DNA from: Actinomycetes bacterium | GTDB lineage: Bacteria; Actinomycetota; Acidimicrobiia; Acidimicrobiales; RAAP-2 | Direction of reading: 5' to 3' | Length of the DNA stretch: 64,000 bases | Assembly (NCBI GenBank): GCA_021793395.1 | Contig: JAJYSU010000003.1 | Span: 1-64,000 of the forward strand | Shown: in pieces, positions 9,488 through 57,123 of the stretch | How positions within the stretch are numbered: position 1 is the first letter of the stretch | Layout: the number at the start of each line of letters is the position of its first letter | Notes under the pieces: generated by a model | What the model was told of the DNA's origin: nothing | Databases searched by the model: none | What the model saw: only the letters and a program-made list of their open reading frames with translations | Made by a program: the position numbers and the translations under genes

Positions 9488-10207
9488 ATGTTCGTGAATC
9501 GAGTCGTGCGACGTTCCCTTCTTGCCGTAGCCCTAGGGGTTGGCGTGTCCGTGAGTGTGTTACCCCTGGTGGCGCAGGCGACCACGAAGGAGCCGAGCGT
9601 GGCGTCGGTGCTCACGGCGGTGCGTGCCAACATGGCCGCCGAGCGTGGTGTGCACATCGTCGTGACGTCGAGATCAGCGACCGCGCAGGACAGCGTCGTG
9701 GCCGATCTGGGTCGTACTAGTGGCTCGGAGACGTTTACGTCCGGTAAGGCAACCGTGTCGATCGTGGTGACTCCTCACTACGCCTACCTTCGTGGTAACG
9801 CGGCGGGACTCATGACTCTCGTGGGCCTCACCTCGAGCCAACAGAAGAAGGTCGGAAGTAAGGCGATCTCGATGAAAGCGGGTACCTCGCCCTACGCGAG
9901 TTTCAAGTCGAATCTGACGGTGGGCGCCTTCACCGCGTTCCTGCCGACGCAGAAGGACGTGCGCCTCTCGCGTGACAAGTTCGGTGCGTACGTGCTGTCG
10001 TGGACGACCAAGGCGACGAAAACGACGACGCGCACGACAAGCGTGTTGACCATGTCCTCGGGCAAGAAGCCCTTGCCCCTGCGTGAGGTGGTGACGAGTA
10101 GCTCGGGTTCGGGGTCGACAAACTTTTCAAAGTGGGGCGAGTCGGTGGCGACGTCGGTGCCTTCCGCCCGTTCGCTCATTCCCTACACGGCGGTTGTCAA
10201 GGGTTAG
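9488..10207 (+). CDS. Secreted hypothetical protein
   Basis: Signal peptide FVNRVVRRSLLAVALGVGVSVSVLPLVAQA; no recognised domain. Confidence 0.7.
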   Translation: MFVNRVVRRSLLAVALGVGVSVSVLPLVAQATTKEPSVASVLTAVRANMAAERGVHIVVTSRSATAQDSVVADLGRTSGSETFTSGKATVSIVVTPHYAYLRGNAAGLMTLVGLTSSQQKKVGSKAISMKAGTSPYASFKSNLTVGAFTAFLPTQKDVRLSRDKFGAYVLSWTTKATKTTTRTTSVLTMSSGKKPLPLREVVTSSSGSGSTNFSKWGESVATSVPSARSLIPYTAVVKG

Positions 10208-10420
10208 AGGGCGCGCCGGGTCGTCGGTCGGACTCGTCGCGTGGTGAGGCTGAGGGAGTTTGCTCGGCGAGACGCGTCGCGACCTCACTGATGTGCCCGC
10301 GTCCTACGATGTGTGAGTGGAACGTTCGACACGTGGCGAGAAACGGCAACGGCGTCCACGCTCCGAATCGTCAGTGACGAGTGCGTGGGCTAGATCGACA
10401 GTGGCGGATGACGTGCGCTC

Positions 10421-12169
10421 GTGAGCCAGGTACGCTCGCCCTCGCCCTCGCCCTCGCCCTCGCTCGTAGTGCCCACTGAGCGTGGTGACCGCTACAAGTG
10501 GGTAGCCCTCTCCAACACCACGCTCGGGTCGCTGATGGCGATGATTGATATCACGATCATGCTGATTGCGCTACCCGACATCTTTCGGGGGATCCACATT
10601 AATCCGCTTCTACCCAAGAACAGTTTCTTCTTACTGTGGATGATTCTGAGTTTCATGGTGGTGACCAGCGTGCTCGTGGTGAGTCTGGGGCGCCTCGGCG
10701 ACATGTACGGTCGGGTGCGCATCTACAACCTGGGATTCGCCGTGTACACCGTTTTTTCACTGGCGCTGAGCGTGACGTGGATGTCGGGCACGTCTGCCGC
10801 ACTCTGGCTGGTGGTCATGCGGGTGTTTCAGGGGGTGGGGGCGGCGATGCTGATCGCTAACTCGTCGGCAATTCTGACCGACGCCTTCCCCGAGAACCAG
10901 CGAGGGATGGCGCTGGGCATCAATCAAGTGGCCGGTCTCAGTGGATCCTTCATCGGATTGATTCTCGGTGGCGTGCTCGCGCCGATCCAGTGGCGACTTA
11001 TCTTCTTGGTCTCCGTGCCGATCGGGCTCTTCGGCACGCTGTGGGCGTATCGCAAGTTGCGCGAGGTGCCTCGGCGATCGGCGGCGCGTCTGGACTGGGC
11101 GGGCAACGTCACCTTCGCGCTGGGACTGATCGGAATCATGGTGGGAATCACCTACGGTATTCAGCCCTACGGCGGCGCGACCATGGGCTGGTCCAGCCCC
11201 TTCGTTCTCGGCAGTCTCGCGGCCGGGGTGGTTCTGCTCGTCGCCTTCGCGATCATCGAGCAGCGGGTCGTGGACCCGATGTTTCGACTGCAACTCTTTC
11301 GAATCCGGGCCTTTACGGCGGGAAGTGTCTCCTCACTGCTGGCGAGCATGGGTCGCGGGGGACTGATGTTTATTCTGATCATCTGGCTGCAGGGGATCTG
11401 GCTGCCCCTGCACGGATACAACTTCACTCGCACGCCGCTGTGGGCCGGTATTTACATGCTGCCGATGACCCTGGGCTTCTTGCTCGCGGGTCCCGTGTCG
11501 GGGTTCCTGTCGGATCGATTTGGTTCTCGTCCCTTCGCCACGGGAGGGATGATCGTCGCCGCCGGTTCGTTCCTGCTCCTCGAACGACTTCCCATCAACT
11601 TCTCCTACGCGGAGTTCGCACCCATCCTTTTGCTCAACGGCCTCGCGATGGGCGCCTTCGCGGCACCCAACCGTGCGGGCGTCATGAACAGCCTGCCGGC
11701 CGAACACCGGGGCGTCGGCGCGGGAATGACCTCCACGTTCCAGAACTCCGCTCAGGTGTTATCGGTGGGCGTGTTCTTCACGCTCATCATCGTGGGACTC
11801 TCGGCCACGCTGCCGTCCGCCCTGTTTCATGGACTGGTAGCGCACGGCGTTCCCGTGTCGGCGGCGACGGCGGCGTCGCACCTTCCTCCGGTGTCGACCC
11901 TGTTCGCCGCCTTCTTGGGTTACAACCCGGTGCAGCACATCGTGGGAGCATCGGTCCTCGCGAGTCTGCCCGCCCACCAGGTGACTATTCTCTCGGGCCG
12001 GAGCTTTTTTCCCACCCTGATCGCGCACCCTTTCGCCAGCGGGTTGCACGAAGCATTCGATTTCTCCATCGCGGCGTGTCTGGTGGCGGCCGGTGCGTCG
12101 TGGCTGCGCGGTGGGAAGTATCACTATCCGACGTCGGACGAGTCAGCGGAGTCGCCGTTGGACGAGTGA
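10421..12169 (+). CDS. MFS transporter, DHA2 (14-TMS) drug:H+ antiporter-like
   Basis: Multiple hydrophobic TM segments; GSLMAMIDITIMLIALPDI, SLGRLGDMYGRVRIYNLGF, RVFQGVGAAMLIANSSAILTDAFPENQRGMALGINQ. Confidence 0.88.
   Translation: MSQVRSPSPSPSPSLVVPTERGDRYKWVALSNTTLGSLMAMIDITIMLIALPDIFRGIHINPLLPKNSFFLLWMILSFMVVTSVLVVSLGRLGDMYGRVRIYNLGFAVYTVFSLALSVTWMSGTSAALWLVVMRVFQGVGAAMLIANSSAILTDAFPENQRGMALGINQVAGLSGSFIGLILGGVLAPIQWRLIFLVSVPIGLFGTLWAYRKLREVPRRSAARLDWAGNVTFALGLIGIMVGITYGIQPYGGATMGWSSPFVLGSLAAGVVLLVAFAIIEQRVVDPMFRLQLFRIRAFTAGSVSSLLASMGRGGLMFILIIWLQGIWLPLHGYNFTRTPLWAGIYMLPMTLGFLLAGPVSGFLSDRFGSRPFATGGMIVAAGSFLLLERLPINFSYAEFAPILLLNGLAMGAFAAPNRAGVMNSLPAEHRGVGAGMTSTFQNSAQVLSVGVFFTLIIVGLSATLPSALFHGLVAHGVPVSAATAASHLPPVSTLFAAFLGYNPVQHIVGASVLASLPAHQVTILSGRSFFPTLIAHPFASGLHEAFDFSIAACLVAAGASWLRGGKYHYPTSDESAESPLDE
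10435..10464 (+). repeat. Hexanucleotide tandem repeat (CTCGCC)x4 plus CTCGCT, encoding (SP)n
   Basis: Read directly at the N-terminus of the MFS gene. Confidence 0.85.
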
Positions 12170-12226
12170 GGCGAGTGTCCGGGGCAGCGTGTCGTGGATA
12201 TCGACACCGCCGTGGGGAGGCGTCGT

Positions 12227-12769
12227 TCAGTTGCGTGGCGACACGGTGAGCGCGCCAATGATCTCGTCAACGATTCGCGCGACGTCGGTGTTGATGTCCA
12301 CCGTGACGCCGTGCTCGTCATCGCCTAGCGGCTCCAGGGTGGCTAGTTGGGACTCGAGCAGCGAGCGCGGCATGAAGTGATTCGTGCGAGCCCGGAGGCG
12401 AGCGTCGAGCAGGGCAGGGGTGCCCCGTAGGTAGACGAAGGGCGCCCCGGGGACGTACTCGCGCAGGACGTCACGGTAGCGACGCGTGAGGGCCGAACAC
12501 GCCACGACCGTGGGCTGGCGCCGCGCCGCGGCGTCTTTCATGTGCTGGCCGACGGCGTGCAGCCACGGGAGCCGATCGTCATCGTTCAGGGGGTGGCCGG
12601 TTGCCATTTTCTCGCGGTTCTCGGGCGAGTGCAGATCGTCGGCGTCGAGGAAGTCGGCGCTGAGCCGAGTGGCCAGTGCGAGACCCACCGTGGTCTTGCC
12701 CGAACCCGATGCACCCATCACCACGATGGGTGCATCGCCGTCGACGAGGTACGCCGTCATCATGTTCAT
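12227..12769 (-). CDS. gntK: Gluconokinase
   Basis: Walker A GASGSGKTTVGLALA; DADDLHSPENREKMATGHPLNDDDRLPWL; VACSALTRRYRDVLR; NHFMPRSLLESQLATLEPL. Confidence 0.93.
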   Translation of the reverse strand: MNMMTAYLVDGDAPIVVMGASGSGKTTVGLALATRLSADFLDADDLHSPENREKMATGHPLNDDDRLPWLHAVGQHMKDAAARRQPTVVACSALTRRYRDVLREYVPGAPFVYLRGTPALLDARLRARTNHFMPRSLLESQLATLEPLGDDEHGVTVDINTDVARIVDEIIGALTVSPRN

Positions 12770-12956
12770 GGTATGCGTTACCGTGAACCGCGACGTGGCC
12801 GGATGCTCATCGTGACCCGCGGCGCAAGAGCACCAGGAAGCGACGACGCGGCGAAGTAGCGTGGGCGTGTGTACTGAGCGACGGCCCTGGTCGAGGATTC
12901 ACGGACCCGAACGTGCAGGAATTTCGCTGAGGTCGGTTTGGTGAGAAGGTGAGAGG

Positions 12957-14366
12957 GTGACGACGTTGGTGCGAGGTCAGTTGAGCCCTGATCGACTGCT
13001 GCCGGCGGACCCGACCACGCGCGAGCTCGCGCGCGAGTTGCTGAGTTGTGTCGAGGACCTTCCGATCGTGTCGCCCCACGGCCACGTCAGCGCGTCGGTG
13101 ATCGCGGACGACGAGCCCTTCAGCGATCCCGCCGGGCTTCTCGTGACGCCGGATCACTACGTGACCCGCCTGCTGCACGCCAACGGCGTCTCGCTGGCGG
13201 CACTCGGCGTAGGCGGCTCGGGCGCCGAGCCGCGCGAGGTCTGGCGGGAGTTCTGCGCCGCCTGGCCCGTGTTCGACGGCACGGCGTCGGCTAACTGGCT
13301 GACGAGTGAGCTGTCCGACCTGTTCGGCGTGCACGACGCGCCCTCTCGCGAGAACGCGGACGTGCTCTACGATCGGATTGCGGCGCGCCTGAGCGAGCCC
13401 GACCTACGACCGCGGGCGCTCGTGCGCTCGTTTGCGGTCGAGGTTCTCGCGACCACCGACGACCCGCTCGATGACCTCGCGGCGCATCGCCGCCTGGCCG
13501 AGGATCCGTCCTTCGAGGCGCGCGTGGTACCCACGTTTCGTCCCGACGCGTACGTCGACGCCGCCACGCCCGACTTCACGCAGCGGGTGGACCGGCTCAT
13601 CGCCGAGGCGGGCGAGGGCGGCAGTGGGTACGACGGATACCTGAGCGCCCTGCGGGCTCGGCGTCAGTACTTCATCGATGCGGGGGCGACGGCGAGCGAT
13701 CACGGGGTGCGTACGCCACGCAGCGTGATACTCGATCCACTCGCCGCGTCGCGGCTCTTTGATCGAGTGCGCCGCGGGGGCGCGGGCGAGGACGATCGCG
13801 ATACGTTTGAGGCCCACATGCTCTACGAGATGGCTCGCATGAGCGTCGAGGACGGGCTGACCATGATGATTCACCCCGGTTCGCTGCGTAACTACGATCG
13901 TGAGACGTACGCTTGCTTTGGACCCGACACGGGCCACGACATCCCGGTGTCCGTGGAGTTCACGGCGGCACTACGTCCCCTGCTCGACGACTTCGGTAAT
14001 GCGCCGGGCTTCCACCTCGTTCTGTTCACACTCGACGAGAGCACGTTCTCTCGAGAGTTGGCGCCACTCGCGGGCTTTTATCGTGGTGTCTATTTAGGGT
14101 CCCCCTGGTGGTTCCTCGACGCTCCCGACGCGATGGCTCGCTTTCGTGCGGCGGTCACCGAAACCGTGGGATTCTCACGCTACGGGGGCTTCGTCGATGA
14201 CACTCGCGCCTTTTGCTCGATACCCGCACGTCACAACGTCGCTCGCCGCGTCGAGGCGTCGTTTCTCGCCCGCTTGGTGGCCGAACATCGCGTGACGCTC
14301 CCGCGAGCTCGTGAGATCATCGTCGACGTCATTGACGGCGCGCCGCGACGGGTCTTTAAGTTATGA
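12957..14366 (+). CDS. uxaC: Glucuronate isomerase
   Basis: SPHGHVSASVIADDEPF...LLVTPDHYVTRLLHANGV; adjacent to uxuB-like and manD genes. Confidence 0.92.
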   Translation: MTTLVRGQLSPDRLLPADPTTRELARELLSCVEDLPIVSPHGHVSASVIADDEPFSDPAGLLVTPDHYVTRLLHANGVSLAALGVGGSGAEPREVWREFCAAWPVFDGTASANWLTSELSDLFGVHDAPSRENADVLYDRIAARLSEPDLRPRALVRSFAVEVLATTDDPLDDLAAHRRLAEDPSFEARVVPTFRPDAYVDAATPDFTQRVDRLIAEAGEGGSGYDGYLSALRARRQYFIDAGATASDHGVRTPRSVILDPLAASRLFDRVRRGGAGEDDRDTFEAHMLYEMARMSVEDGLTMMIHPGSLRNYDRETYACFGPDTGHDIPVSVEFTAALRPLLDDFGNAPGFHLVLFTLDESTFSRELAPLAGFYRGVYLGSPWWFLDAPDAMARFRAAVTETVGFSRYGGFVDDTRAFCSIPARHNVARRVEASFLARLVAEHRVTLPRAREIIVDVIDGAPRRVFKL

Positions 14367-15793
14367 CGTCGACGTCGCGGCCGTTGACTCCGGAGGCGTT
14401 CGGTGTGTCCTCGCGGCCGCCGACGCGAATCGCCCATATCGGTTTGGGGTCCTTCCACCGAGCTCACCAGGTGTGGTTCACCGCTCACGCCGACGATGGT
14501 AACGAGTGGGGTTTCTGCTCCTTCGCGGGGCGCGCGGGTGGCCTGGCGCCGACGTTGCGCGCCCAGGGTGGTTTGTACACCCTCATCGAGCGCTCGGGGT
14601 CGGGCGATGCGTTCGAGGTCATGACCAACCTGGTCGACGTGCGCGAAGGCACCGACATCGCGGCTCTGACGGACGTGCTCTCGCGCTCGGAGACGGCCGT
14701 GCTCACGACGACCGTGACCGAGGCCGGCTACCACCTGGGTCTCGACGGTACCCCCGATCTCGCGGACGCGCACGTGGCCCGAGATCTCGTGCTCCTGGAG
14801 AAGGCCCTGCGCGAGACTCACCTCGAGGCGTGCGCCGTGACGACGGTGCCGGGGAGAATCTTGCTCGGCCTTAGCGCTCGTCGACGCGCGGGAGCGGGAC
14901 CGATCGCGATCGTTCCGTGCGACAACGTGCCGAGTAACGGACCCACTCTCCAACGGGGTCTAACTCTGTTGTCGCAGGGCCTCGACGCTGATCTGGCCGC
15001 GTGGATGGGCGACAACGTGGCGTTCGTGTCGACCAGTGTGGACCGAATCACGCCGCGAATCACGGATCACGACGTGGCGTTGGTGGCGCGCGAGACGGGT
15101 TGGCGAGACGCCGCGCCGGTCGTGACGGAGCCCTTCGCCAGTTGGGTCTTGTCCGGTACGTTCCCCGCTGGTCGGCCCCGCTGGGAGAGCGCCGGCGCGA
15201 TCGTCGTGGCGGACATCGAGCCCTACGAGCGGCGCAAGCTGTGGCTCCTCAACGGAGCGCACAGCCTGCTCGCCTACCTGGGATTGGAGGCGGGGCTGCG
15301 CACGGTGGCCGAGGCGATTGGCGATGGAGCGTGCCGACGCGCGGTGGAATCATTCTGGACGTCGGCCCGCCGTCACCTTCCGGAGTCGTTGAAGCTCGAT
15401 GAGTACTGCGTCCAGTTGGTCGAGCGATTCGCCAACGGGCGCATTGAGTACCAGCTCGAGCAGATTGCCTCGGATTCGGTGATGAAGCTTCGTACCCGGA
15501 TTGCCCCGGTCGTTGTCGCCGAGTCCCACGCCGGGCGGGAGTGCCCGGCCGGTGACGCGGCGTTGGCGGCGTGGGTGCGACTCGTGGCAGTTCGTGGTTC
15601 GTTTCCCGACGCCGAGTTCGACGCGGTGACGTCGCGACGCGAGACGACGTCATTCGTTACCGATTTGCTCGCTCTCGTGGAGCCGAGTCTCGCCGAGTCG
15701 CCCGTGGCGTCGCGAGTAGCGCGTCTGGTCGAGGGGGACGCGATCCCGGTCGGTGCCGTGACTCCATTCGCACCCATTTCAAGGAGGATCTGA
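14363..15793 (+). CDS. Mannitol dehydrogenase family protein (likely fructuronate reductase, UxuB-like)
   Basis: [56 protein letters not shown]. Confidence 0.9.
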
Positions 15794-15794
15794 C

Positions 15795-17033
15795 ATGGCC
15801 ATTGTCGCGGCTGACGTCATCGTTACCAGTCCCGACCGAAACTTCGTGACCTTGAAAATTACGACCGATGAGGGGGTGAGTGGTCTCGGTGACGGCACCC
15901 TCAACGGGCGTGAGCTCGCCGTGGTCGCCTACCTTCGCGACTACGTCGTCCCCCTGTTGATCGGGCGCGACGAGCGCAATATCGAGGACACGTGGCAGTT
16001 CCTGTATCGAGGCGCGTACTGGCGGCGCGGACCGGTCACCATGGCCGCGATCGCGGCGGTGGACGTCGCTCTGTGGGACATCAAGGCCAAGCAGGCCGCT
16101 ATGCCTCTCTACCAACTACTCGGGGGAGCATCTCGGCGAGGACTGCTGGCCTACGGCCACGCGTCGGGCAAGTCTCTCGACGAACTCTTCGACAGTATTC
16201 GTGCGCACCAGGCACTGGGCTATCGCGCCGTTCGCGTGCAGACCGGCGTCCCGGGCCTCGAGTCGATCTACGGGATCGCGTCGAACGCGACCGCCCCCGG
16301 TAACGCGGGGGTGCGCTACGACCACGAACCCGCTCAGCGTGGTTCGCTACCCGCCCAGGAGGACTGGGACACACGTCGTTACCTGCGTCACGTGCCGACG
16401 GTGTTCGAGGCGGTACGTCACGAGTTCGGTCCCGATCTGCCACTGCTGCACGACGGACATCACCGCATGACGCCCATCGAGGCGGCGCAACTCGGACGGT
16501 CCCTCGAGCCGTACAACCTCTTCTGGCTCGAGGATTGCACCCCGGCGGAGAATCAGGAGTCACTGCGCCTCGTTCGCCAGCACACCACGACGCCCCTCGC
16601 TATCGGGGAGATCTTCAACACGATCTGGGACTATCAACTCATCATCCGCGAGCAGTTGATTGACTACGTGCGTAGCGCGGTGACCCACGCGGGCGGCATT
16701 ACTCATCTCAAGAAACTGCTCGAGTACGCTGCCCAGTACCAGATCAAGTCGGGGATGCATGGTCCTACGGACGTGTCGCCGGTGGGGATGGCGGCGGCCA
16801 TGCACCTAGGAATGGCCATTCACAACTTCGGTATCCAGGAGTACATGACGCACGGGGAGCGAACCAACGAGGTGTTCGAGTAGTCCTTCACGTGGCGCGA
16901 CGGCTACCTGCACCCGGGTGACGCACCGGGACTGGGCGTAGCGCTGAACGTCGACGAAGCGGGAAAGTATCCCTACGTGCGCGCCTATCTCCCCTATAAC
17001 CGGTTGGCGGACGGAACGGTACACGACTGGTGA
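15795..17033 (+). pseudogene. manD: D-mannonate dehydratase (ManD/RspA, enolase superfamily) interrupted by an in-frame TAG at 16881-16883
   Basis: Residues 1-362 read as ManD. After the TAG the same frame continues [49 protein letters not shown], the expected ManD C-terminus. May be a nonsense allele, readthrough or a sequencing error. Confidence 0.88.
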
Positions 17034-17124
17034 GTACCGGGGGACTGACGCGGCGCGAGCGAGAGGACTCGGCGAGGTCGAGCGGCGCGGCTCGCACGAT
17101 GACGCCACGATCGCAGGACCGCCC

Positions 17125-19092
17125 GTGACCAAGCCCGCCAGTGCGCCACCGACCCAGGACAAGGGAGCACCGACCGCCCCGCCCCCGCCACCCGCGTGGC
17201 GCCACTACCTGTGGCTCGTGGCGCTCGCGCTCTTCGTTCTCCTGCTGTTCTTCGTTCCGGCGACGAGCAGCCAGACTCCGGTCACCCTGAGCTACTCCAG
17301 CTTCATGAGTGACGTCACCGCTCACACGGTGAAGAGTGTCACGCTGGAGACCAGCGGTGCGGCGACGGGCACGCTGTCTAGTGGCAAGAACTACACCACG
17401 GCCATCCCGCCTCAAGCCGGGCAGTCTCTCCTCGACGATCTACGCGCCAATGGCGTGCAGATCTCGGCCCAAACGACGGGAACCTCGTTCGGAACCGACG
17501 TCCTGTCGTGGCTCATTCTGCTGTCACCGTTTCTGGTGTTCGGTTACATCTGGTGGCGGATGTCGAGGGGGTCGGGTGGTCTGCAAGGGGCACTCGGGGT
17601 CGGACGATCCAAGGCCAAGGTCTTCGATGAGGAGCGTCCCACGACCACCTTCGAGGACGTCGCCGGGTACGAGGGGGCCAAGCTCGAGATTCGCGAGGTG
17701 GTGGACTTTCTACGCCGACCGGAGCGCTACGTGCGAGCGGGGGCCATGGCGCCTCGTGGCGTCCTGATGGTCGGCCCCCCCGGGACTGGCAAGACGCTCT
17801 TCGCCCGCGCCGTCGCGGGAGGGGCCAACGTCCCGTTTTTCTCGGTCACGGGCTCCAGCTTCGTCGAGATGTTCGTCGGCGTCGGTGCGGCACGCGTGCG
17901 CGATCTCTTCGCCGAAGCGCGCAAGCGCGCGCCCGCAATTATCTTCATTGACGAGATCGACGCGATCGGCCAGCGCCGTGGTGGAGCCATGGTCGTCGCG
18001 AACGACGAGCGCGAGCAGACCCTCAACCAACTTCTCGCTGAAATGGACGGATTTGATCCCGCCGAGGGAATCGTCGTACTCGCGGCGACCAATCGACCAG
18101 AGGTGCTCGATCCGGCGCTGTTGCGTCCGGGTCGCTTCGACCGTCAGGTGATCATCCCGCTGCCGACTCTCACCGAGAGGCTCGCCATCTTGCGGGTGCA
18201 CGCGCGCGGCAAGAAGCTCGGCCCCGACGTCGACCTCGAGGTCGTCGCACGAGGGACGCCCGGCTTCTCCGGAGCCGATCTCGCGAATCTGATCAATGAG
18301 GCGGCGATCGTGGCCGTGCGGTCGGATCGTGATGTCCTTAGTGCCCAGGACTTCGATCAGGCTCGTGATCGGATCATCCTTGGATTGCGGGAGGGTTCCA
18401 ACGTGCTGATGCCCGACGAACAGCACGCGGTGGCGGTGCATGAAGCGGGTCACGCACTGGTGGCGGTCTACAGCGACAAGGCAGATCCCATTGCCAAGGT
18501 GACGATTCTGCCCGCCGGCCAGACGCTGGGCGTGACCGAGCAGCTGCCGCTCTCCGAGCGTCACCTCTACGGCGAGGACTATCTCTACGAGACCCTCGCC
18601 GTCTTTCTTGGGGGGCGGGCGAGTGAGGTGGTCGTGTTGGGTCAAGGCTCAACCGGGGCGTCCAACGATCTGGCTAAGGCGACCGAATTAGCCACCAAGA
18701 TGGTGCGCGAGTTTGGCATGTCACCAGTGATTGGTCCCGTGGGTTACCCATCGGGGGGATCGGTCTACTTGGGCGAAGGGGGGAATGCCCTGTCGAGTCG
18801 ACCCTTCGCGGAGGCGACCCAGGCCGCCATTGACGCCGAGGTCGCGCGCATCGTGCACGAGGCCGAGCAGCGAGCGATGGCGGTGGTGAGGGAGCACCGT
18901 GACGTTCTCGATCAACTCGTATCACTCCTAGTCGCCAACGAGACCGTTGACGGCACGGTGGTGTACCAGTTGGCTGGTCGGCCCGAGCCAACGAGCGTCG
19001 GCGGTGTGACGATGGCCCCCGATCACGCGCGAGCCGCGACCGAGACAACTCGTGGTGCGTCGCCCGACGCGTCGCCCACCACGCCGGCGTGA
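17125..19092 (+). CDS. ftsH: ATP-dependent zinc metalloprotease FtsH
   Basis: [46 protein letters not shown], second region of homology, HEAGH zinc site. Confidence 0.97.
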
Positions 19093-19179
19093 CGCGACGC
19101 GGCGGATCGGGTGCTGGCGTTCACCGACTGACCTCGTTACCAGGGTGGTCGTGACGAGCACCTTCACGGAACGTCGCTG

Positions 19180-19297
19180 ATGCTTCACGAGGTGGTCACG
19201 AACTGACAATTAGCGGTACGGGTGTCCGTCGACACCGTCGCAAGGAAGTGGCGCCGACACGGGTGATGGGCTGGCGCCACTCGCACCCGAGCACTGA
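19180..19297 (+). pseudogene. Transposase helix-turn-helix relic (IS630-like)
   Basis: Frame reads EVVTN*QLAVRVSVDTVARKWRRHG then, after a frameshift, DGLAPLAPEH; resembles the HTH pattern ...SNqqIA.rvgVSvdTVrkWRrRf..dGLaGLad. Confidence 0.55.
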
Positions 19298-19358
19298 TGG
19301 TCACGACGTGTTCGTGCTCGGCGACTGTGGCCGGGCGACGAACGTCGTTGTCGCACTT

Positions 19359-19402
19359 GGTGCGCCGGCCGAGACGCGAACCCGGAACCTGTTGATGAAG
19401 AG
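19359..19402 (-). repeat. Truncated 3' half of tRNA-Lys (direct repeat of 22633-22676), candidate att site
   Basis: GGTGCGCCGGCCGAGACGCGAACCCGGAACCTGTTGATGAAGAG vs GGTGCGCCGGCCGGGACTTGAACCCGGAACCTGTTGATTAAGAG, 4 mismatches in 44 nt; the 5' half of the tRNA is absent. Confidence 0.8.
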
Positions 19403-20125
19403 GGGGATACGAACGGTCGGACCCGTCCGGTGGCGTTGGTCTGGTCCGTGAGATGAACGGTGGGATGTGTGGGGAGCTCGGGAGGCGTAATTTCGAGGGT
19501 GTCTCACGTGGCGTGGAACGTGGATGACGACCCCGAGTAACTGAACTAGGCGGCCGCCCCCTGTTCATCAGCGTCGTGGGGTGGCGTGACGGTGACTCGA
19601 CCGTGCTCGTCTGGTGCCACGCAGTGTGCAGGTGCGCGTGACCGTTGACGAGGCGTCACCGCATCGTCGCCTCGACGGGCGTGATTGCGAAGCGACTCGG
19701 AAGGGTCACCGCGACGATCACCCTGCGGGGATCCCGGGTCGCTGATCTGCTGTCTCACCCTTGAGGTGGTGCGGCGTGGACTGATTGGTAGTACTACGAG
19801 TGGGGGCCCCGCACGACGGACGAAGCGCCACTACGCGCCAAGCCCAGACGGCCTCGCGCTTGGCACGGACCCCTTCAGGTTGGAACATGTTGCGCTGATT
19901 CAGTGACACGTGGTGCTACGGCGTCTCCGTCTCACCCGGGCCGTACCGAGCGACCAGGGACCGGGCGCGAGACCGGTATCACATCAATTCCAGCCCGATC
20001 CCTCAAAGTGCTCGTTTGCGCCGAGGGCTTGAGGCAGTTCGATGCCGGCGGTCCGGAAGTGACCTAACCTCTAATTTGGTGGGCTATCTCTCAGGTTTGT
20101 TCGTGCGGCGACGATTGTTTTCATT

Positions 20126-21343
20126 ATGATCAGTGGCACCGACCCGCCAGTTTCGACGGGCGAATCACAGTCCCCAGGGGGTCCCGCGAGGCGCGTCCAG
20201 GCCACGGAGCGAATCGCCGAGCGCGTCGCACTGGGAAATGCCCTCGAAGAGCGAACGAATGACGTCGTGCGCTGGTGTCAGTTGGAGTTCGTGAAGCACT
20301 CGGGAACCACCTTCGACGAGGTGGCTGCGCAGGACGCTCGGTGGGAGACCACCTCCTTGGCGGTGCATTCGATCGCCCAATGGCTCACGAGTGGTGTGTC
20401 GGCCGATCACCTTGACCGTGAACAAATTGCTTCGCTGGGCCGGGTGGCAGTACAGCAACGAGGGGCTCGTATGTTGTCCGCCCGCGTCGGCGAGCAACCA
20501 GAGGTTGAGTCCGGTTCGCGACCTAGCCCGCATATCGACACGCACTTCCAGTTGTCGGTCGCTCTTATCACCAGGCTCAACCTCTGGTGGAGCGAAGCGA
20601 CTCGCACCGTGCTGGCCGAGGAGGCTGCCCGATTGGAGATCAGCACGGCCACGCTCGACGAAGCCTGCGACATGGTGATGAAGAGTTGTCGCTCAAGTTT
20701 GGTGCGCATGGCCAAGCAGTTCGACGCGGAGTTCGAATCGCTTTACGAGCGGATGTCGCACCTGGCGCGCTACGACGCGCTCACGGGCCTCGTAAATCGA
20801 GCCACGCTGGTCGAGTGGCTCGAGCGAGCGAACGCTCGACTGGCCCGGCATCCAGGAGGTCTGGTCGTTGCCTTCATGGACGTGGACAACTTCAAGGACG
20901 TGAACGATGCGTACGGACACGCGTGGGGGGACGAAGTGCTCGTCGAACTGGCATCACGTCTCGTCACCCAGATGCGTCCTGAGGACGTCGTCGCTCGTTT
21001 CGGGGGTGATGAATTCGTCGCTATTTTCGCTGACCTGACCGATCCGTTGGACGCGGCGCCGAGGATGGTCGAGCGCCTGCAATCCATCGTCACCGAGCCC
21101 GTGAGAGTGAATGGAGAGGATCTCCACATGACTATCAGTATCGGGATCGCCGTCGTTCAGGGACCCGGATGTTACACAGATGAGGTTCTGGCCCAGGCTG
21201 ATACGGCCATGTACTCGGTCAAGAAGACGGGGAGCAACAAGATCGTCATCGTGGAGAGCGGTTCACCCGACCGGTCCGTTGCGCCACGGTCAGTGGGCTC
21301 CACGCTGCGCCGCAGCAACCAGGGTTCCGACTCGTCTGCGTAG
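20126..21343 (+). CDS. GGDEF-domain diguanylate cyclase
   Basis: RFGGDEFVAIF active-site motif, upstream RPED matching an RxxD I-site, DVDNFKDVNDAYGHAWGDEVL; all-helical N-terminal sensor-like region. Confidence 0.93.
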   Translation: MISGTDPPVSTGESQSPGGPARRVQATERIAERVALGNALEERTNDVVRWCQLEFVKHSGTTFDEVAAQDARWETTSLAVHSIAQWLTSGVSADHLDREQIASLGRVAVQQRGARMLSARVGEQPEVESGSRPSPHIDTHFQLSVALITRLNLWWSEATRTVLAEEAARLEISTATLDEACDMVMKSCRSSLVRMAKQFDAEFESLYERMSHLARYDALTGLVNRATLVEWLERANARLARHPGGLVVAFMDVDNFKDVNDAYGHAWGDEVLVELASRLVTQMRPEDVVARFGGDEFVAIFADLTDPLDAAPRMVERLQSIVTEPVRVNGEDLHMTISIGIAVVQGPGCYTDEVLAQADTAMYSVKKTGSNKIVIVESGSPDRSVAPRSVGSTLRRSNQGSDSSA

Positions 21344-21599
21344 CCGAGGACCTTACGCTCGACGGGTTCGTGATGGCCCCCGTTTACCTTGATCAGCGTG
21401 TCGGATTGCGAATCACCAGAGCCACACTTCGACAGTAGGGGTCAACGGGAATCCCAGAACGAGCCCCGTGACCGCGTAGGACCTCGGTCCATTCTTTTGG
21501 CCGACGTCGTAACGATTAGCAAGATCGGGCAAGTAGAAGTTTCTGGCTGCGCGCACTGATTCGGTCCAGGTATTCCGGAGGCTCTCTGTCTTTGATCTC

Positions 21600-22483
21600 T
21601 CAGGCCGCGTGAGCCCGAGATTGCTCAGCGTAGTCTCCCTCGACCTCGCTCGGCGTTTGGTCGTTCAGTTCGCCGTGGAGTCGTTCGTCGTTAAACCACG
21701 ACACCCACGCGCAGGTCGCTATTTCGAGGTCGTCGAGTTCGTTCCCGTGGCCCCGGTCATGTAGGCGATGTCGCTTGTCCGCACGGCATCGAGACGTCCC
21801 TGGTTGACGTGTCGGCTCACGAGGCCCCCTGGATAGTTCGCGTTCGGGTCGGCCTTCGTGGTGACCCGGAACAGACGCGGACACGTTCCTGGTAGTCCCC
21901 GGGCGCACGCGCATCGCCACGGCCTTCTCGTTCACGGGCTGACCGGCCTCGCGAAGGTCTGTGGTGGCGGAGCCGTAGTTCCCATGGGGGTGTGGTACGA
22001 GTCCGTGATCGCCTCGTCGATCTCGTCGATCTCGTCGATCTCGTCGCGGCGCCACTTCGCCGGCGTGGTTCGTCGTTAGCTACGGCGCCACTGGTAAGGG
22101 CCCCAACGCGAGACCTCGAGCAGTCGCGCCACGCGGTCGACGTCGAAGGTCGCGCACTCCTTTCATCAGAGCGAACCTTGGCGCGGTGGGGGACTCGCGG
22201 CGACGTACGCGGCCGCTTCTTGTACGAACTCGTTGTCCTTCGCCTGTTCGGTGACCTGGCGACCAGGCGCACGAGCTCGGCTCGCTCGGTGGCGCTGAGG
22301 CTCGTCACTCGTTCCCTCGAGCGTCCGGGCGTCGACGTTCGTCACGGACCATCGCCGTAGCGAGTTCTCGGCCACCACGATCTCTCTCGCGACCTCGGTG
22401 ACGCGTGGACCCGAGTCAATGACGCGGTGGGCCGCCTCGATTCTGAATTCGAGAGTGATCTTCCTTCTGGTTGGTGGTGTCAT
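21600..22483 (-). pseudogene. IS3-family transposase remnants (OrfA and OrfB fragments)
   Basis: OrfA-like TPPTRRKITLEFRIEAAHRVIDSGPRVTEVAREIVVAENSLRRWSV; OrfB C-terminal LDDLEIATCAWVSWFNDERLHGELNDQTPSEVEGDYAEQ; intervening sequence frame-disrupted. Confidence 0.82.
22014..22046. repeat. 9-bp tandem repeat (TCGTCGATC)x3 plus TCGTCG
   Basis: Read directly; lies inside the broken IS3 OrfB. Confidence 0.9.
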
Positions 22484-22634
22484 GGTGACAACCTTCTCGC
22501 CGACTCAACGAGCTGGCTTATCGGGTGTCCACTTCCTCGGAAGTCTCAGACCGTCACGAAAGCGTGGGGGATTGCGGGGCTTCTCCTGCGAGCGCACAAC
22601 GCCAATGAACACCAAAGTACCTGATCAAACCCGG

Positions 22635-22707
22635 TGCGCCGGCCGGGACTTGAACCCGGAACCTGTTGATTAAGAGTCAAATGCTCTGCCAATTGAGCTA
22701 CCGGCGC
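22635..22707 (-). tRNA. tRNA-Lys (CTT)
   Basis: Cloverleaf GCGCCGGTAGCTCAATTGGCAGAGCATTTGACTCTTAATCAACAGGTTCCGGGTTCAAGTCCCGGCCGGCGCA, anticodon CTT. Confidence 0.95.
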
Positions 22708-22744
22708 GAGACGAGTCTATACCGGATCGTACGCGCGCCACGGG

Positions 22745-24181
22745 TTACGGTCGCTGAATGGCCTTCACCTCGAGGAACTCCTCGAAGCCGTAACGTCCCA
22801 GTTCACGGCCGATACCCGACTGTTTGTAACCGCCGAAGGGGGCGACGACGTTGAAGGCGCCACCGTTGATTTCGACTTGACCCGTTCGCAGTTGGCGCGC
22901 GACCTCGAGAGCCTTTTCGTCGCTGCCCGCCCAGACGCCACCGGCGAGTCCGTAGGACGAGTCGTTGGCGATCGCGATGGCTTCTTCTTCGGTGTCGTAG
23001 GGGATGAGGCAGAGGACGGGGCCGAAGATCTCCTCGCGGGCGATCGTCATGTCATTGGTGACGTCGGAGAAGATCGTGGGTGCCACGTAGTAGCCCTCGT
23101 CCAGGCCGACCGGTGGGGCAGTACCGCCGCAGATCAGGCGGGCACCTTCGTTGATCCCCGTCGTTATGTAGTGTCGCACGCGTTCGAGTTGGGCCCCGCT
23201 GACGAGTGGTCCCAGCAGGCTCGAACCAGTGACGGGATCGGCGGGTGCCAGGTTCGTGGCGGCGTTGACGGCGAGGTCTTCAATCTCAGCGAGCCGAGAG
23301 CGCGGAACTACCATCCGTGTCAGGGCCGAGCAGGTTTGACCCGAGTTCAGGTAGCACTTGAAGACACCGTCGGGTACGGCGCGAGAGAGGTCCGCGTCGG
23401 GGAGAATTACGTTGGCGGATTTGCCACCGAGTTCGAGAGACACACGCTTTACCATCTCTGCGGCGATCTGCATGACGCGCTTTCCCGCGCGCGTGGAGCC
23501 CGTGAAGGAGACCATGTCCGTCTTGGGGTGCGCGACGAGTGCTTCACCGACGACGGGGCCAACTCCGGTGATGAGATTGAACACGCCGTGGGGCAAACCG
23601 ACATCGTTGATGATGTCGGCGAGGAGAAAAGCGTTCACGGGGGCGACCTCGCTCGGTTTGAGAACCACCGTGCATCCCGCACCGAGGGCCGCGGCAACCT
23701 TGTTGGCGATCTGGTGTAGTGGGTAATTCCACGGAGTTATTGCCACCACCACGCCTACCGGCTCTCGTAGGAGGAGCGAGTTTCCGACGACCTCTTCCCA
23801 CACGAAATCCTTCGTGCGCTGGGCGTTGTCGGCAAAGGTCGCTGTCGGCAGGCCCACCTGGATCGCCTTGGCAAGGGCGAGGGGCATACCTACTTCGTGC
23901 GCGATGGTGAGGGCAATCTCGTCACCGCGTTGAACGAGCTGGTCGGAAATTCGCTGCAGAAAATCGGCTCGTTCGGCGGGGGCGGTACGGGACCACGAGG
24001 GGAAGGCCGCGGCCGCAGCGTCGACCGCGCGGTTGGCTTCGTCGACGGTACCTTCGGGAACCGTGGCGTAGGGTTCCCCTGTGCCCGACGTGGTGACGGT
24101 GAGCGCCGAGGGAGAGGCCGCGGGAACCCACTGTCCGTCAATGTAGAAGGACTCGCGTGCGATCATCATGGTCACCCCCAT
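22745..24181 (-). CDS. Aldehyde dehydrogenase family protein
   Basis: [86 protein letters not shown]. Start may be 15-18 nt shorter. Confidence 0.95.
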
Positions 24182-56217: not shown

Positions 56218-57123
56218 GTGATCCCACACGGCGTGGTGCAGGTTGGTCCGCAGTGGCACCTCGAGGAGTTCGCCGCGACGCTGCGGGTGCAGGATCGCTC
56301 GCCCGCGACGCAGCGGGCGTACCGAGCCGACGTCGAGCGTTTCGTTCAGTGGGCACGTGACGGAGCGGTTGAGAGCCCCTCGGCAGTGACGCATCGAGTA
56401 CTACGCGCCTACCTGACGGACATGACGACGAGGGGTGACGCCCGATCGTCGATCGCGCGTCGTCGGGCGTCGCTGCGCCGCTACTTCGCCTGGCTGGTGG
56501 AGCGCGGTCACGTGGAGCAGAGCCCCGCGGCGCGTCTCATGGCGCCACGGGCGCCGTCGCGGCTTCCCACGCTGGTGGTGCGCGAACAGCTTGACGTTCT
56601 GCTTGATGAGGACTGGGGGGATGACGAGTGGGCGATACGCGATCGGGCGGTGTGCGAGGTTCTCTACGGAGCCGGCCTTCGCGTCAGCGAGCTGTGCGAT
56701 CTCGACCTGGGAAGTATCGATTTCTGCGGTGGCCTGTTGCGGGTCATGGGCAAGGGTCGCAAGGAGCGCGTGGTGCCGCTGCACCAGCGCGGGCTACGCG
56801 CCGTGACGCGCTGGATCGAGGATGCTCGCGATGACGTGCTCACCGCGGAGTCGCCGCGCGAGGCCCTCTTCGTGAATCGGCGCGGGCGGCGCCTGGGACC
56901 GCGCGACGTGCGCCGCATGTTGGATCAGCGTGTCGTGCGGGGTCACGTCAACCCCCACGCGCTGCGCCACACGTACGCGACCCACCTCGTCGAGGGTGGC
57001 GCTGATCTGCGAGTGGTCCAGGAACTGTTGGGTCACGAGAGCCTGACGACGACCCAGCTCTACACGCACGTGTCCAAGTCCCGCCTTCAACGGGTCCATC
57101 ACGAGACCCATCCCCGGGGGTAG
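56218..57123 (+). CDS. xerC: Tyrosine recombinase XerC/XerD-like
   Basis: LYGAGLRVSELCDLDLGSID, MGKGRKERVVPL, HALRHTYATHLVEGGADLRVVQELLGHESLTTTQLYTHVS; located upstream of rpsB. Confidence 0.93.
   Translation: MIPHGVVQVGPQWHLEEFAATLRVQDRSPATQRAYRADVERFVQWARDGAVESPSAVTHRVLRAYLTDMTTRGDARSSIARRRASLRRYFAWLVERGHVEQSPAARLMAPRAPSRLPTLVVREQLDVLLDEDWGDDEWAIRDRAVCEVLYGAGLRVSELCDLDLGSIDFCGGLLRVMGKGRKERVVPLHQRGLRAVTRWIEDARDDVLTAESPREALFVNRRGRRLGPRDVRRMLDQRVVRGHVNPHALRHTYATHLVEGGADLRVVQELLGHESLTTTQLYTHVSKSRLQRVHHETHPRG

Follow-up and report, generated by a model that had tools for sequence, protein, structure and literature searches.

On the evidence of its sequence, the segment at 19359-22632 of the window (the whole stretch of 64,000 nt analysed here, from contig JAJYSU010000003.1 of an Actinomycetes bacterium, genome G000) is very probably a dead module that a phage-type tyrosine integrase delivered to the 3' end of a tRNA-Lys(CTT) gene. 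We read it as a dead member of a family of tandem, mostly integrase-less modules, each built on a tRNA 3' half (the core) and an adjoining conserved arm.

The starting point is a repeat. The 44 nt displaced to the left junction match the tRNA-side copy (22633-22676) at 40 of 44 positions (91%, four mismatches) on the same strand; in 20 dinucleotide shuffles of the window, the 44-mer matches at 24-28 positions at best. A sequence-only reading of this DNA had picked out the repeat, and its length, mismatches and orientation stand. The copied segment begins at the 5' edge of the anticodon loop and includes everything to the tRNA 3' end, with 2 nt beyond it. A tRNA-targeting integrase that crosses over at the anticodon loop is expected to copy just this piece. 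With the tRNA 3' end duplicated at both junctions in one orientation, as in tRNA-targeted tyrosine-integrase elements, we take the duplication to be an integration footprint.

Features of the tRNA-Lys(CTT) locus (positions in the window, strand as listed)
Feature	Positions	Strand	Basis or remark
Left flanking gene of empty site	9488-10207	+	ortholog 38-46 bp from tRNA-Lys in G030, G057
Remainder of insert relative to empty site	10208-19358	.	MFS, kinase, sugar-acid genes, FtsH; no second core
MFS transporter	10421-12169		
Small kinase	12227-12769	-	
UxaC (sugar-acid gene)	12957-14366		
Mannitol dehydrogenase (sugar-acid gene)	14363-15793		
MR/MLE enzyme (sugar-acid gene)	15795-16883		
Accessory second FtsH gene	17125-19092	+	80-86% homologs in 3 of 60 sampled congeners
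Displaced 44-nt core, left junction of module	19359-19402	+ (as listed; orientation same as tRNA-side copy)	40/44
P-type arm adjoining displaced core	19403-19470	+	homologous to arms in L144 and L183
Decayed module part, apparently non-coding (~650 bp)	19471-20125	.	sequence
Intact GGDEF (diguanylate cyclase domain) gene, cargo	20126-21343	+	PF00990, 6e-44
Shattered IS3-type transposase remnants	21600-22490	-	rve_3 at 21603-22055, HTH_Tnp_1 at 22169-22483
P'-type arm adjoining tRNA-Lys	22563-22628	.	homologous to tRNA-to-integrase spacer of G115
Intact tRNA-Lys(CTT), target gene	22633-22707	-	ARAGORN; tRNA-side 44-nt core at 22633-22676
Conserved right flank: aldehyde dehydrogenase, then tRNA-His and tRNA-Arg	22745-24181	-	

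Both ends of the unit carry arms with counterparts in congeners. The left arm contains a direct repeat of 12-bp period, GTGAGATGAACG GTGGGATGTGTG, at 19448-19471. It aligns with the arm at locus L144 (z 10.7, 0 of 500 shuffles) and, in a gapped alignment, with that at L183 in genome G034 (z 7.9, 1 of 5000 shuffles); ungapped, the L183 match is 30 of 66, and the best of 5000 shuffles likewise reaches 30. Relative to L144, the window arm seems to be without a segment that lies between two internal repeats. The right arm matches the spacer between tRNA and integrase gene in G115 (z 11.4, 0 of 500 shuffles). This is its one close counterpart; against a general set of module right ends its score is not significant, nor is the score obtained when the sequence left of the 19359 copy is compared with module ends. 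The window's short arm goes unreported under the stricter filters of the arm model described below. Because the left arm matches L144 and the right end matches the G115 spacer, we take the unit to have both ends of an element of the family.

Between the cores, as the sequence-only reading had listed, lie apparently non-coding DNA (about 650 bp; it had given ~700 bp), an intact GGDEF gene and shattered IS3 open reading frames. Its statement that no integrase is left also stands: neither a profile search with all filters off nor sensitive tblastn found an integrase remnant in 19000-23000, and in this respect the unit is not an autonomous tyrosine-integrase element. Composition, proposed earlier as a comparison with the flanks, turns out to be uninformative, since the tetranucleotides of the 3.3 kb are not unusual and therefore neither support nor oppose a foreign origin. 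The picture of a fossil island is right as to decay and the missing integrase; the unit is not isolated but one member of a genus-wide module family. The GGDEF gene recurs elsewhere on its own, and in G034 its homolog comes first after a tRNA-Lys(TTT) core and a homologous short arm, which suggests that the same cargo and arm have been used with two tRNA cores. A short tandem repeat of GATCTCGTC-like units is found at 22010-22045, within the IS3 remnant, with similar short matches in G000:C47.

Comparison of the locus with relatives shows where the insertion begins and ends. In most of the relatives examined, the homology on the right side (tRNA-Lys, aldehyde dehydrogenase, tRNA-His, tRNA-Arg) starts exactly at 22633. 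It extends further left by 84 bp at L052 (G028), by 70 bp at the integrase-bearing L169 (G115) and by 21 bp at L168 (G053), and this extra homology is the arm. The site is occupied in the window and empty in G030 and G057, as for a tRNA-targeted tyrosine-integrase element: G030 is collinear with window 1-10.2 kb and its ortholog of the gene at 9488-10207 ends 38 bp from tRNA-Lys, while in G057 that ortholog lies 46 bp away. The full insert is therefore 10208-22632 (12.4 kb), with ftsH inside it. The empty site had been foreseen with ftsH directly beside the tRNA; the site is there, and the neighbour is another gene. The 3.3 kb is shared at this locus by no congener compared, so that the syntenic conservation that might have told against an island is not seen. 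Integration at the tRNA-Lys 3' end with the old 3' half left at the far junction, as first proposed, agrees with the arms, the synteny break and the empty site.

The 3.3-kb unit is the tRNA-proximal module of this insert and probably the latest. Further core copies above background are absent from 9.9-23 kb of the window, and the left ~9 kb of the insert has an edge without a recognisable core; this part may consist of older modules with eroded boundaries, or may be another insertion. The ftsH homolog in G028 lies between two core copies.

The same construction recurs through the genus. In 99 genomes, G000 included, the 44-nt core within 3 mismatches is found in up to 10 places per genome, with two or more matches in 26 of the 99. 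The GTDB records with non-tRNA core copies are MAGs of Acidimicrobiaceae or Actinomycetes, and most of their isolates are named palsa, bog or fen, which we take to refer to Stordalen Mire. Nearly all copies stop at the same end base, after which comes a conserved non-coding arm of about 120-140 nt. A model of the arm alone, whose E-values are rough, finds 306 sites in 43 of the 99 genomes, up to 27 per genome. In 148 genomes across the order it finds none; this sample had no positive control, and so the negative result is a suggestion only, that of a genus-specific arm. Larger genomes have more arm sites (Spearman 0.75 over the 99 genomes and 0.81 in the 59 that are at least 90% complete, both uncorrected for phylogeny).

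The same arm also stands 3' of the 3' halves of tRNA-Lys(TTT), a core present up to 9 times per genome, and of tRNA-Met(CAT). At L127 (G039:C35:45000-60000), several modules have a tRNA-Met(CAT) 3' half as core and an arm of the same family; they adjoin intact tRNA-Met and tRNA-Asn genes, and the contig also has a module with a tRNA-Lys(CTT) core. Between cores, modules measure about 0.8-14 kb, and their cargo includes transporters, ABC/FtsX exporters, Fic, AbiEii-like proteins, GGDEF/EAL proteins, enzymes and regulators. Module exchange can be seen in G058 and G015, where related modules share 92% identity over 2.5 kb; each stops precisely at the core, and what adjoins on the right differs. 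Phage_integrase is outside the 25 most frequent Pfam families among 82 module ORFs and has no match in 30 module ORFs scanned singly, and none of the matches to it listed for 27 genomes lies within the bounded modules examined. At L171:11239-11411 and L173:5418-5575, arms sit on the last 16 nt of the core only, with unrelated DNA opposite; these may be secondary sites or deletions.

Partial tRNA copies are common in genomes, and the identity of the window repeat is 91%, not 100%, as might be expected of unrelated debris of a tRNA gene, or of a copy made by ordinary duplication or by homologous recombination. However, dozens of copies have the same endpoints and the conserved arm attached, the paired repeats are shared by the integrases described below, and synteny breaks at the tRNA end, all of which makes such an origin extremely improbable. 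Debris, in a genus lacking empty-site genomes, was the alternative that the sequence-only reading had set against itself; the arm homology contradicts it, and G030 and G057 have the empty site. Since some 120-140 nt of conserved non-coding DNA adjoin the cores, it might also be thought that core and arm work as a functional RNA or as a folded site of the attC kind, and not as an attachment site bound by protein. The consensus fold has no pairs in the arm, and pairs inside the tRNA core only, one of them compensated; the paired direct repeats fit protein binding better, and we regard the RNA or folded-site explanation as very unlikely. The preferred reading, of an attachment site used by an integrase, can be followed further with the integrases themselves.

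In G053, G115 and G109, a tyrosine integrase of ~400 aa begins ~100 bp downstream of tRNA-Lys(CTT) and has the orientation of the tRNA. These proteins have SAM-like and arm-DNA-binding domains and match phage integrase families; paralogs adjoin tRNA-Lys(TTT), tRNA-Met and tRNA-Val. At E <= 1e-70, an integrase homolog is present in 17 of the 99 genomes, and the cognate family is not found in G000. Most of the relatives are draft genomes or fragmented MAGs, and many of them break at these repeats; integrase-bearing elements may therefore be more frequent than they seem. Beside tRNA-Lys(TTT) at L174, L175, L179 and L181, integrases of four species are 97-99% identical, which suggests recent transfer. 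The window has a tyrosine recombinase of its own at 56623-57081 (304 aa), which is not the island's integrase; it looks like a housekeeping Xer protein, with a ~305-aa match in most congeners searched. Three consecutive tyrosine recombinase genes, recombinase-in-trio-like, are found at G000:C31:1317-3402 and on C8, C14, C15 and C58 of G028.

A direct-repeat pair of 11-bp period lies between tRNA and integrase at 9 of 12 loci, and one of 12-bp period at the end of the module arm in 83% of 52 arms. The repeat types recur on the arm side and the integrase side, and the prediction that arm repeats are of the type on the integrase side of the same genome held in all three cases: G115 (GTGGGTTTT), G053 (TGTGGTGTT) and G049 (TTAGGGAT). 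In G115 and G053, the arm may mark where the integrase-bearing element itself ends on the far side. For G109, the L171 site was considered as the far end and rejected, its repeat type being different from that beside the G109 integrase. In G049, a tRNA-Lys(TTT) core with matching arm lies about 51.6 kb from the tRNA and integrase; this prophage-sized element, the sole integrase-bearing one with both ends on one contig, is likely to be intact and autonomous. Most module right ends are without the integrase-side repeats, and module sites therefore look one-armed.

That last observation also bears on whether the window unit was once a full integrase-bearing element, whose integrase was lost when IS3 landed in or replaced that part. 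We give this possibility serious weight, at somewhat less than an even chance: the unit has a right arm like the G115 tRNA-to-integrase spacer where most non-autonomous modules have no integrase-side repeats, and its IS3 debris occupies the position of the integrase gene in integrase-bearing elements. Against it, no integrase remnant appears at any sensitivity, and, with the G049 element at ~51.6 kb, a very large deletion would be needed as well. Packaging of the modules as phage satellites by integrase-bearing prophage-like elements seems to us unlikely. The G115 element has a RecE-like exonuclease, DNA methyltransferases and a weak terminase match, and phage satellites often share attachment sites with their helpers, but modules go down to 0.8-3 kb with transport, signalling or enzyme genes, the Pfam matches listed for the 82 module ORFs include no phage structural family, and the exact core pattern is absent from IMG/VR.

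For the module delivered to tRNA-Lys(CTT), which remains our preferred reading, the following course can be proposed. The paired direct repeats of the arms would be arm-type sites for the N-terminal domain of the integrase. The integrase of a rare autonomous element would bind a circular module at its core and arm repeats and insert it at tRNA-Lys, recombining the chromosomal 44-bp tRNA 3' half with an identical core on the incoming circle; the tRNA would be rebuilt, and at the far junction the old 3' half would remain, with the incoming arm behind it. Repeated insertions would build tandem arrays of modules with varied cargo. As nearly all of these lack an integrase, most would have been mobilised in trans, or else in cis together with an element that has one. 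Later, cores would drift and insertion sequences accumulate; in G000 the core has drifted, the arm has probably lost an internal segment and an IS3 element has broken up.

More tentatively, and with rather more doubt than confidence, the modules may form a tRNA-based cassette system, analogous to integrons and unrelated to them. Its one-armed sites (the 44-bp tRNA 3' half plus the arm of ~120-140 nt with its 12-bp paired repeat) would let rare phage-type integrases insert integrase-less modules in trans, serially, at tRNA-Lys(CTT), tRNA-Lys(TTT) and tRNA-Met, with an exchangeable tRNA core, and the process could account for much of the genome expansion of one genus.

Islands without an integrase are common at tRNA genes, and most go without an explanation. 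In this genus, with its large genome-size gradient, each step from the target through core, arm and paired repeat to the cognate integrase and the exchange of cargo can be read from sequence. A single integrase and one module site make it possible to test directly how such islands move, and core plus arm can serve as a marker by which modules of this kind are located and dated in uncultured bacteria of soil. The literature searched contained no report on this genus, though one may exist.

Among known systems, the closest likenesses appear to be with ssrA islands, additive islands and CIMEs. Dehalococcoides has 31 ssrA-specific islands in tandem, bounded by short repeats of the RNA gene's 3' end; 15 of the 31 are without integration genes and have been proposed to be cis-mobilizable, and the integration genes adjoin the RNA gene (PMC3146451). 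The tandem order, the RNA-gene 3'-end repeats, the many members without integration genes and the place of integration genes beside the RNA gene are common to both. Those islands, however, use a serine recombinase and a 20-bp repeat in tmRNA (PMC3146451), whereas in this genus the enzyme is a tyrosine integrase with an arm-binding domain, the cores span 44 bp and occur in several tRNAs, and the arms are long with paired repeats; the window unit, with tRNA-Lys as target and tyrosine integrases as cognate enzymes, is thus not of the Dehalococcoides type. In the additive island fGI-2 of Methylophilaceae, tRNA-end repeats at tRNA-Lys(ctt) likewise mark variable, mixed additions; the repeat there is 20 bp, and the parts of that report consulted describe no conserved arm or cognate integrase repeats (PMC10872708). 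CIMEs share with the genus modules boundary attachment sites, tandem accretion and the lack of integration and transfer genes (described in PMC3146451). The window unit, like a CIME, has attachment sites at both ends and no integrase or transfer genes; tandem accretion is seen in congeners, and the window keeps only one recognisable displaced core. Unlike CIMEs, most genus modules keep repeats in one arm, and the arm-repeat types vary within one array. A Tycheposon is a tRNA-bounded element with a tyrosine recombinase, and the window unit has no recombinase. Integron arrays and CALINs also string together serial modules with one recombination site each, usually without an integrase in the array (PMC11389934), but the site in this genus is a tRNA 3' half plus an arm with no pairs predicted and no attC-like fold, the modules are often multi-gene and the integrase is phage-type. 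The genus modules differ from these precedents in scale and in using several tRNA genes; nearly all of them, moreover, have a long arm with typed repeat pairs, and this appears to be their only arm.
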